From Candidatus Poribacteria bacterium (lineage in GTDB: Bacteria > Poribacteria > WGA-4E > WGA-3G), in the NCBI GenBank assembly GCA_022827885.1, contig JAJEIP010000137.1, positions 1-64,000 on the forward strand: 64,000 nucleotides of DNA, given 5' to 3'. Made by a program: the position numbers and the translations under genes. The notes beneath the pieces are model-generated. The model saw only the letters and a list, made by a program, of their open reading frames with translations. It ran no database searches and was not told where the DNA came from. This document shows, piece after piece, positions 2,752-6,190 of the stretch; position 1 is the stretch's first letter, and each line of letters opens with the position of its first letter.

Positions 2752-3558
2752 ATGTCTTTATTTAAAAATGTGCGAATCAGTCTCGTGGGTGTTATGGCAG
2801 TCTTTTTACTGATAGCACCACATGGCTTTGCTGATATTGACCCTGACAGTATCACAGGAATGTGGCTCTTTGATGAAGGGAAAGGTGGTGTCGCCACCGA
2901 CGCATCAGAAAACGGAAACGATGGTGAAATCCACGGTGCAAAATGGGTAGATGGGAAATTCGGAAAAGCACTTGAATTTGATGGTGCCGGCAATTGGGTT
3001 GAAGTTCCCCACTCAAACACTGTTGGGTTTAAAGCGGGTGTATCCTTCACAATCACCTGTTATTTCAAAGGGACCAGGGTCGCTGGCGCACTCGTTGGAA
3101 AAAATTATGAGGATACATCACAAGTATTGCCGTGGTACCTGCTCTGGAACGGAGGTGGCGATAATAAAGTGACCCTCTACCTGCGCGACAGCGCATCAAC
3201 CAGTTTCCGAGCGGACGGTAAGACCGAAATTGGAGATGACAAATGGCATTTTGTCGTTGGTAGAGCAGATGCCGATGCTGGCAAGGCTTCGATATGGATA
3301 GACGGCGAAATGGAAACTGAAACCGACTTCAACGCAAAAGATGGATACGGCACCGGCGACGGCGTATTTCACATCGGACGGCACTATGATCGGTATACTG
3401 ACGGTGTCATTGACGAAGTTGCGCTCTTCAATGTTGCTCTGGAAGAAGAGGATATAAAATTTCTCATGGAAAACGGCCTTGAAACTGCCGCCGCAGTTGA
3501 ACCCGTGAACAAGCTAACAACAACGTGGGGCAGAATTAAGCAACAGATGAGCGAATAG
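2752..3558 (+). CDS. secreted LamG-domain (concanavalin-like) protein with WG tail
   Basis: 268-residue exported protein. GAGGAGG 8 nt before ATG fixes the start; a signal peptide (basic start, then VLLIAP-like hydrophobic core ending GFA) precedes the mature protein. The body is one LamG/concanavalin-A-like jelly roll: MWLFDEGKGG, then DASENGNDGEIHGA, ALEFDG, and the C-terminal GVIDEVALFNVAL strand typical of the LamG_3 family. Such domains bind carbohydrates or other extracellular ligands. The final residues KLTTTWGRIKQQMSE match the tail found on other secreted proteins here, separated from the domain by a short linker. It resembles the LamG genes at 39001 and 39891. Confidence 0.85.
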   Translation: MSLFKNVRISLVGVMAVFLLIAPHGFADIDPDSITGMWLFDEGKGGVATDASENGNDGEIHGAKWVDGKFGKALEFDGAGNWVEVPHSNTVGFKAGVSFTITCYFKGTRVAGALVGKNYEDTSQVLPWYLLWNGGGDNKVTLYLRDSASTSFRADGKTEIGDDKWHFVVGRADADAGKASIWIDGEMETETDFNAKDGYGTGDGVFHIGRHYDRYTDGVIDEVALFNVALEEEDIKFLMENGLETAAAVEPVNKLTTTWGRIKQQMSE

Positions 3559-3693: not shown

Positions 3694-4797
3694 ATGAAAT
3701 TTATACACACGCTTGCTTTGGTATTCCTGCTGCTCGTGGGATTGAATTGCGGGACAGAAAACCCTGTTAAGGAAACGGTAGATACCGCCGTAGTGGAAAC
3801 ACCGACAGGGACGCTACGGGGAGAGGTCCACCCTATTGATGGGGTATTGATTCAAGTGCGTTTACTAAGAGATGGGCAACTCTTAGCGCAAACTCAGGCG
3901 CAGGCGACCTATGAACTGACATCAGTTGAAGCTGGAAACTACACGCTCCAAATATCGGCAAAAGGGTATGAAACCGAAGAGGTAAATGCCACTGTCACCG
4001 CTGGACAAGTCGTCTCGCTGGATAAGGTGGCACTTGTGGCGTTGGCGACGCCGGTTTCGCATCTGCGCGGTGTTTTAACGGATAAGGCAACAGATGAACC
4101 GCTCGGTGCAGTCAATCTCCAACTTACTGATAAATCAGGCAAAGTTTACGAAGCACTGACAACAGGAGCCGGTATTTTCACCTTTGAAAACCTCCCTGTA
4201 GAACAAGCCTTCACCTTAGCGGTCGCACATGTGGGTTACGAAGAGACCGAAGTCCCGGTGCATCCGATACCTGCGGCGGAGACCTTGGAACTACAGGTTC
4301 AACTTACACCACTGGCGGCACCCGAGAAATTAAATCCAGGTCAAGGCTTGAGTCTCGGAAGCCGATCACCCGCCTTTGAATTACCCGATAGTGATGGCAA
4401 ATTGCACGCACTCGCTGATTATGTCGGAAACACGAACGTAGTGCTGGTGTTTTACCGCGGCGGCTGGTGACCCTTCTGCAGAGGGCAACTCGGAGAGTTG
4501 CAAAAAAACTATGCGAACATTCGGGCGGCAGGTGCGGAACTCATCGCTATCAGCTCCGATGATGAAGGCGATACCAAAAAGACAGTCCAAGCCAGTGGAC
4601 TTGAATTCCCGGTCCTCGCCGATAAGGACAGAGCGGTCATCAATGCCTACAACGTCTTGGATCCTGGTAACGACAGGATAGCACGTCCCGCATCCTATGT
4701 CCTTCGCAAAGATGGGACAGTCGCCTGGAAATCTATTGACGGGGTAGCCGTGCGTGTGCCGACAGCGCAGATTCTCGCGGAATTGGGGAAACTCTGA
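3694..4797 (+). CDS. peroxiredoxin-like lipoprotein, probable selenoprotein (in-frame UGA)
   Basis: Read as one gene of 367 residues with UGA at 4468-4470 translated as selenocysteine 259. The N-terminus is a signal peptide with Cys at LNC (a weak lipobox). Two carboxypeptidase-regulatory-like beta domains follow (about residues 40-115 and 120-205), then an AhpC/TSA-type thioredoxin fold: LGSRSPAFELPDSDGK, VVLVFYRGGW-U-PFC-RGQLGEL, then AELIAISSD and FPVLADKD. The UGA falls exactly where the peroxidatic Cys of the W-C-P-F-C motif is expected, and the second Cys is kept three residues on. The frame is unchanged and fully conserved after the UGA. A hairpin suited to a bacterial SECIS starts 14 nt after it. 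Role inferred: thiol/selenol peroxidase at the outer surface or periplasm. The next gene overlaps its stop (TGATG). The alternative is a truncated 258-residue protein or a UGA mutation. Confidence 0.8.
4485..4501 (+). promoter_or_regulatory. SECIS-like hairpin
   Basis: Perfect 7-bp stem GCAACTC/GAGTTGC with loop GGA (4492-4494). The loop begins 21 nt after the UGA and starts with G-G, as bacterial SECIS loops for SelB usually do. It lies inside the coding sequence, as expected for bacteria. Confidence 0.65.
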
Positions 4798-5921
4798 TGA
4801 AATCTTACGACACCGTTATAGAAAATATTATTGCCGACAGCCAAGAAGCTGCACGACACCGAGATACGCTTGACCGCCGACAGTTCTTAACCCGGCTTGC
4901 TACGGGTGTTGGCGGCATCGGTGGCGCACTCAGTGCACTTCCGGCGTTCGCACAGTTGAGTAGTGGGCAGTTACAGCCCGATACCACGACAGCAACGCCT
5001 CTCACGCCTGTCGTTGAGGCTGTTAGTCAAAACGTCTGGGATGGTGATCGGCTTGACGAGGACGCTGTTAGTGAACTGATGGATCAGGCGATGATGAAGT
5101 TCACTGGACGTGCTTCTGCGAAGGAGGCGTGGCGAGATATCGTCCTGCCCGACGACATCGTTGGCATAAAAATCAACCCGCTCGGTGGACCCCAATTCAG
5201 CACACATCCTATCATTGTTGATAAGATTGTTGAAGGGGTATACGGCGCGGGGGTCCTCAAAAAGCAAATTATTATCTGGGACCGGTTTGAAAGCCACCTC
5301 TTGAATGCTGGGTACCCCATCAAGCAAGCTGAAGGCGAAGTGCAGACTTTTGCCTCTGATACAGAGGGGATCGGGTATGACGACGAAGTCTTTTACGAAA
5401 GTGAAAAAGACAGCGTTAACCGCCGGGAAAACGAAAGCACTCGCTCCCGGTATTCCCAAATCGTTACGCAGCATGTTGATGTGTTGATTAATGTTCCTGT
5501 CTTGAAACACCATGAAATGGCGGGGATCAGTGGGTGTTTAAAGAACCTCGCGTTTGGCAGTGTTGATAACACACGCCGGTTCCATGGAAAACCGATCTAT
5601 TGCAATCCGGCTATCGCCGAGATTTTAGAGCATAAGGTCCTGAAAGATAAACTCGTCCTCAATATCGTTGACGGGTTGGTTGCATCGTTCGACCGAGGAC
5701 CGACATATCACGCCGAAAGCGCGTGGAACTATGGGAGTCTCTTTGTGGGTGCAGATCCGGTTATCCTTGATGTCCTTGTCCTTCAGACTGTCAACCAGAA
5801 GCGCGAGGAGTTGGAATTGGGGTCTGTGTCTAAGTTAGCAAACCATATTAACACAGCGAGTGTCCTCGGTTTAGGCACGAATACACTTGACCAAGCCGAC
5901 CTCCGGAGAGTTGAGATTTAA
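4797..5921 (+). CDS. DUF362-family protein with Tat signal
   Basis: 374 residues; its ATG overlaps the stop of the selenoprotein gene (TGATG), so the two are probably translationally coupled. The N-terminus has a twin-arginine-like signal (DRRQFLTRLATGVGGIGG, then ALPAFAQ), indicating export of a folded protein. The body matches the DUF362 family: IVGIKINPLGG, then VLINVPVLKHHEMAGISG-like core (here LINVPVLKHHEMAGISGCLK) and NIVDGLVASFDRGP. Family members are often near iron-sulfur proteins, but no CxxCxxC cluster motif is seen in this one. The exact reaction is unknown. Co-transcription with a peroxidase suggests a periplasmic redox role, which is an inference. Confidence 0.75.
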   Translation: MKSYDTVIENIIADSQEAARHRDTLDRRQFLTRLATGVGGIGGALSALPAFAQLSSGQLQPDTTTATPLTPVVEAVSQNVWDGDRLDEDAVSELMDQAMMKFTGRASAKEAWRDIVLPDDIVGIKINPLGGPQFSTHPIIVDKIVEGVYGAGVLKKQIIIWDRFESHLLNAGYPIKQAEGEVQTFASDTEGIGYDDEVFYESEKDSVNRRENESTRSRYSQIVTQHVDVLINVPVLKHHEMAGISGCLKNLAFGSVDNTRRFHGKPIYCNPAIAEILEHKVLKDKLVLNIVDGLVASFDRGPTYHAESAWNYGSLFVGADPVILDVLVLQTVNQKREELELGSVSKLANHINTASVLGLGTNTLDQADLRRVEI

Positions 5922-5923
5922 CC

Positions 5924-6190
5924 ATGAAATACATACAGGATGTAGGAGGGGTTTGTAACCCCGATTCCTTTCTGATTCTCTTCTGCATCGCGATCACCCT
6001 TTTCCAGGTGACAGGATGCACAGTGACGTTCACGCAGAGCGATACGCTCCACCTCAGTCTATCCGAACCAGCGGCGGGAACGATGGACATTGTTGCCGAG
6101 TTTGAAGCGGGTGAGGCTGACAGTGTCGCCGGTGATGTAACGCAGAAAGCGGGGAGTGTGTGCGCGGGTGGGGCGTGTATTATCTATTGA
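5924..6190 (+). CDS. small putative lipoprotein carrying an embedded repeat
   Basis: 88 residues, two nucleotides after the DUF362 stop, so probably the last gene of that operon. It has a hydrophobic stretch FLILFCIAITLF followed by a good lipobox (VTGC), then an acidic mature part ending in CAGGACIIY. A dispersed hairpin repeat (5942-5964) forms codons 7-14 (VGGVCNPD), pushing the signal peptide away from the start codon, so either the N-terminus is unusually long or translation begins elsewhere. No family was recognised. It overlaps the convergent gene by 7 bp. Confidence 0.5.
   Translation: MKYIQDVGGVCNPDSFLILFCIAITLFQVTGCTVTFTQSDTLHLSLSEPAAGTMDIVAEFEAGEADSVAGDVTQKAGSVCAGGACIIY
5942..5964 (+). 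repeat. dispersed hairpin repeat family A (copy 1)
   Basis: A 23-bp unit built on GGGGTT-TGT-AACCCC. Further copies are at 9789-9811, 11561-11583, 11603-11625 and 34080-34102. This copy lies inside a reading frame. Confidence 0.75.

Follow-up and report, generated by a model that had tools for sequence, protein, structure and literature searches.

The question raised by this locus is whether a TGA codon within a peroxiredoxin-like reading frame terminates the protein or specifies selenocysteine (Sec, U), and, if the latter, where in the active site the Sec residue would stand. The frame lies in the window, that is, the whole stretch of 64,000 nucleotides analysed (C33:1-64000), which is part of a 5.1-Mb genome (96.7% complete, 148 contigs) of the sponge-associated Candidatus Poribacteria. 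The decoding of UGA as Sec is itself already known. Translation confirmed the claim of the first-pass annotation that the frame, running from the ATG at 3694 to the terminal stop TGA at 4795–4797, contains a single internal TGA at 4468–4470, with the surrounding sequence FYRGGW-U-PFCRGQL. Ordinary ORF calling splits the gene in two (3694–4470 and 4498–4797), as had been anticipated, and standard annotation cuts the protein short just before the catalytic residue. In a six-frame codon-usage scan of the 64-kb window, this TGA was the sole one having coding-like flanks on either side. The frame had also been said to continue as a peroxiredoxin (Prx) past the UGA; indeed, codon use remains coding-like there, and C262, Q265, E268, L269 and other residues are invariant. 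The features of the gene are as follows.

3694–4797, forward strand: predicted selenoprotein gene, 367 aa, translated with TGA as U.
4468–4470, forward strand: UGA codon, putative Sec259, the first residue of U-P-F-C; TGA in the Poribacteria relatives and TGC/TGT outside the phylum.
4477–4479, forward strand: TGC codon, Cys262, the second residue of UxxC; invariant in 42 aligned relatives; in AhpE and Bcp-type Prx, the peroxidatic Cys falls on this position.
4485–4501, forward strand: putative SECIS hairpin with a 7-bp stem and GGA loop, assigned from its fold, conservation, compensation, codon constraint and absence from Cys relatives.
Residues ~38–205: two CarboxypepD_reg-like beta domains.
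Residues ~216–367: AhpC/TSA-type thioredoxin-fold domain.

Relatives of the protein were detected in 83 of the 85 genomes of the phylum and, among the matches listed, nearly all copies contain exactly one TGA. In the 109 copies fetched, the single TGA is in UxxC and is followed by QL[GVS]EL or close variants. The closest named relatives are all from Candidatus Poribacteria, with identities of the catalytic domain up to 90%. With few exceptions, relatives outside the phylum (loci L135–L201) read C-P-[YF]-C; the codon matching the UGA is TGC or TGT there, and Trp is never seen. The alignment of homologues that the first-pass annotation had proposed as a check thus gives UGA in Poribacteria and Cys outside the phylum. 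In a quick tree, 83 Sec copies were grouped in one clade (SH-aLRT 98); two divergent Sec copies (L114 and L116) and a Cys copy (L117) were found among long branches whose placement is weak. In this Cys copy, found in a class-level relative (G010), TGT replaces TGA and the stem is partly decayed; no full selB was found in the G010 genome, which is only 61% complete. Tandem arrays of two or three Sec copies lie between the LamG and DUF362 genes described below in several genomes of genus g4 (loci L064, L068, L081, L085, L086, L087 and L089), and some of these copies are devoid of one or both N-terminal domains. The plasmids searched gave no match.

The hairpin (GCAACTC-GGA-GAGTTGC) is separated from the UGA by exactly 14 nt (4471–4484), and its loop begins after 21 nt; both the fold and the coordinates agree with the perfect 7-bp stem and G-G-A loop described in the first pass. 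When folded with a 3-nt flank per side, the stem has an energy of −9.1 kcal/mol (z = −4.0). The SECIS stem also forms when 43 nt from the UGA are folded; over 56 nt, a rival hairpin of the CCCUU/GAGGG type is preferred instead, and the z-score is weak. The published rules for bacterial SECIS (bSECIS) elements specify an apical loop of 3–9 nt, a stem of 4–16 bp, a G in the first two loop positions, a loop 16–37 nt from the UGA, and a minimum free energy of −7.5 kcal/mol or lower (PMC13188914), and the hairpin, with 7 bp, a GGA loop, 21 nt and −7.7 to −9.1 kcal/mol, falls within all of them. Scanning the window against Rfam gave no SECIS family.

Constraint on the stem is also apparent from the relatives. 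Among 100 distinct sequences, the inner six stem pairs are kept at 99–100%, and the loop Gly codon is free to vary, with A, T, C or G as its third base. The stem codons are near-fixed (CTC in 107 of 108, GAG in 108 of 109 and TTG in 106 of 109); elsewhere in the domain, CTC, GAG and TTG serve only 23%, 26% and 20%, respectively, of the same residues. Compensatory changes occur in the stem (CAATTC/GAATTG and CAGCTC/GAGCTG), and at the equivalent position the distant family f4 carries GCAGTTG-GTA-CAACTGC and GCAGCTG-GTA-CAGCTGC. In a set of 39 diverse sequences, 96.7% of cells are paired compared with 15–51% for slid partners, both sides are changed in 8 cells compared with a shuffled mean of 1.0, and the covariation score was matched by none of 500 shuffles. 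In the Cys relatives outside the phylum, mostly 1–5 of the 7 stem positions pair, and one reaches 7. Collectively, the conservation, compensation, synonymous constraint, agreement with the bSECIS rules and lack of the stem in most Cys relatives strongly support the earlier assignment of the hairpin at 4485–4501 as a bacterial SECIS.

The genes for Sec synthesis and insertion, which the first-pass annotation had named as a further check and whose absence would have refuted its reading, are all present in the same genome, including that for tRNA-Sec. The selA gene (C33:70833-71933; E = 1.7e-157, over the cut-off) lies ~6.8 kb beyond the window, and selB (C136:16392-18287) is followed after ~60 bases by tRNA-Sec with the anticodon TCA. 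Moreover, selD (L012; C144:60983-61906, forward strand) has its own in-frame TGA, in the active-site region KCAGUASKL, and this enzyme of the selenium pathway is itself a predicted selenoprotein. Across the phylum, selB exceeds the cut-off in 76 of the 85 genomes; only one of the other nine (G004) is at least 90% complete, and G003 and G004, the two genomes in which the protein has no match, likewise lack selB over the cut-off. In PMC5649159, SelA and SelB are reported to be found together in the majority of symbiont bins from sponges, across various phyla, and to be missing from most close relatives; the passage on them names no selenoprotein. The gene studied here represents a concrete and nearly universal Sec user in Poribacteria, with the SECIS kept over genera and families, and our literature search found no paper describing selenoproteins of Poribacteria.

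On the basis of the TGA conservation, the Sec machinery, the SECIS and the Cys relatives, the selenoprotein reading made in the first pass is strongly supported: the frame 3694–4797 almost certainly encodes a selenoprotein, and the insertion of Sec at residue 259 is well supported by comparative genomics. If the UGA were instead a true stop, which is the outcome of standard gene calling, the product would be a truncated 258-aa lipoprotein without the active-site residues; this is very improbable in view of the strong protein-level conservation and coding-like codon use of the frame past the UGA, and of a hairpin that fits the SECIS model. Only one base divides TGA from TGC or TGT, and the assembly is in 148 contigs, both of which could point to a mutated Cys codon in a pseudogene or to a sequencing or assembly error. 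However, this TGA recurs in independent genomes of the phylum, one-contig assemblies such as G080, G082, G083 and G084 among them, and a broken gene is at odds with the conserved SECIS and the fully conserved downstream frame; the retention of the TGA across genera and families refutes this reading, to which we assign practically no probability. An altered genetic code, or a suppressor tRNA that reads UGA as Trp or Cys, would likewise leave the frame open, but UGA also terminates the same gene, the site is occupied by Cys in the relatives and never by Trp, the tRNA-Sec (TCA) adjoins selB and the SECIS is present, so that such decoding has a vanishingly small chance of being correct.

The architecture of the Sec-containing product was analysed with Pfam, NCBIfam and AlphaFold2. 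AhpC-TSA (PF00578) was matched at residues 222–345 with 108.1 bits (gathering score, 26), and the N-terminal half gave CarboxypepD_reg-like matches (PF13620 and PF13715). No NCBIfam model reached its cut-off for the protein; weak matches were those to NF053656 (14.8; cut-off, 100) and NF040769 (50.9; cut-off, 120). The AlphaFold2 model has a mean pLDDT of 90 and a pTM of 0.60, with low confidence in the N-terminus and the first linker, and its catalytic domain matches the structures of Bcp4, AhpE and ResA, the best being Bcp4 and AhpE. The 42 aligned relatives, the one Cys copy among them, all share Cys19, Cys262 and residue 259 (counting U as C). Cys19 follows a hydrophobic stretch in a signal/lipobox region, although the lipobox, G-L-N-C, is atypical. 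The protein is probably a lipoprotein, in line with the earlier description, and a peroxiredoxin-like fold is supported.

A different conclusion from that of the first-pass annotation was reached for the position of Sec, which had been placed exactly at the peroxidatic Cys. Profile alignment with AhpE (FTGIC, T-G-I-C) puts U259 on Thr and Cys262 on Cys, and that with the Aeropyrum thiol peroxidase (FSPVC, S-P-V-C) puts U259 on Ser and again Cys262 on Cys; we take the Cys of both motifs to be the peroxidatic one. When the protein is aligned to ResA, U259 falls on the first Cys of CxxC. The position three residues before the peroxidatic Cys or Sec, where a classical peroxiredoxin has Thr or Ser, is occupied by Sec259 itself. 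Judged from these alignments, the UGA corresponds to the leading Cys in a CxxC of the thioredoxin type, and Cys262 is the predicted peroxidatic equivalent. Surveys keep TxxU Prx apart from UxxC Prx-like proteins (PMC1088965, PMC2398784). With an AhpC-TSA domain over the gathering score, the U-P-F-C motif, and UxxC in the aligned relatives, the window protein is placed by domain and motif among the UxxC ‘Prx-like’ selenoproteins, a known kind.

The alignment of Cys262 with the peroxidatic Cys, together with AhpE and Bcp-type peroxiredoxins being the nearest solved structures, would also be compatible with a selenoprotein that acts in the manner of a classical peroxiredoxin, with Cys262 as the peroxidatic residue and Sec259 as no more than the resolving one. 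We consider this rather unlikely, since Sec usually acts as the nucleophile, U occupies the nucleophilic N-terminal Cys position of the ResA-type CxxC proteins, and the active-site Thr/Ser of TxxC is missing from the window protein. A thioredoxin-type role with Sec259 as the nucleophile is, in our judgement, clearly favoured over that of a peroxiredoxin with peroxidatic Cys262.

The neighbouring genes in the window are the following.

2752–3558, forward strand: upstream neighbour, Laminin_G_3-domain protein (Pfam PF13385), matched in 66 fetched loci.
4797–5921, forward strand: downstream neighbour, DUF362 protein with a Tat signal (RRQFL; PF04015, TIGR01409), matched in 81 fetched loci.
5924–6190, forward strand: small probable lipoprotein of 88 aa with the C-terminus AGSVCAGGACIIY, 73 copies aligned.

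The DUF362 gene overlaps the stop of the Sec gene by one base (TGATG). The gene for the small lipoprotein occurs as one copy each in 70 of the 85 genomes of the phylum; its C-terminus is near-invariant in the alignment, and it has no NCBIfam match. The order of the cluster is LamG-like protein, Sec-Prx-like lipoprotein (1–3 copies), DUF362 Tat protein and small lipoprotein. In family f4, the small gene is downstream of the Sec gene, and no DUF362 gene was found within the fetched stretch. We found no paper linking DUF362 to selenoproteins. This conserved cluster is the most novel part of the finding and provides a testable handle on selenium use in these bacteria; what is new here comprises the near-universal retention in one phylum, the probable lipoprotein architecture and the conserved neighbours.

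From these features, the following mechanism may be proposed. SelB and Sec-tRNA(Sec) would recognise the hairpin 15–31 nt past the UGA and insert Sec at residue 259. Export of the protein and lipidation at Cys19 would probably keep it outside the cytoplasm, where the two beta-sandwich domains may space the catalytic domain from the membrane. Sec259 and Cys262 would constitute a thioredoxin-type UxxC centre cycling between selenol/thiol and selenenylsulfide and reducing peroxides or disulfides of the envelope. A redox role as a Sec-containing, cell-envelope-anchored Prx-like oxidoreductase is likely for the product. The likeliest partners would be the Tat-exported DUF362 protein and the co-encoded small lipoprotein, which has the dithiol motif CAGGAC, a partnership that the conserved gene order alone tentatively suggests. 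It is conceivable, though on balance doubtful, that the three proteins make up a dedicated redox system of the Poribacteria envelope, as yet undescribed, with the two C-terminal cysteines of the small lipoprotein serving as the natural dithiol substrate or electron donor of the UxxC centre.

Among known systems, the ‘Prx-like 1’ UxxC selenoproteins of the GOS survey (PMC2398784; also PMC1088965, PMC13188914) share the AhpC/TSA domain, UxxC and a SECIS right after the UGA. The window protein differs from these in being probably a lipoprotein with two fused CarboxypepD_reg-like domains, and its gene, part of a conserved cluster, is nearly universal within one phylum. The ResA/TlpA-type thiol:disulfide oxidoreductases are membrane-anchored, extracytoplasmic thioredoxin-fold proteins, as predicted for the window protein, with a CxxC on whose first Cys the U falls, but the window protein has Sec for Cys and finds its best structural matches in Bcp4 and AhpE rather than in ResA. 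The thioredoxin-fold (seleno)proteins with the TUGYCR motif (NF053656) and the SelL-related ones (NF040769) also have a thioredoxin fold, and their profile matches are weak and far under the cut-offs. The TxxU peroxiredoxins, such as PrxU, have the same Pfam domain and fold as the window protein, but their Sec occupies the peroxidatic position, three residues closer to the C-terminus.

In-frame TGA codons also occur in further Prx-type frames of the genome. L025 (C144:7510-7935, forward strand) is Prx-like and has its TGA within UxxS (TWUPNSRRQL), and the hairpin is absent at the usual place. L027 (also L205; C121:8126-8944, reverse strand) is a TxxU-type, two-domain peroxiredoxin with a Sec codon in each domain (FTGGU and FGRGU) within one frame, Sec being at the peroxidatic position of both domains.
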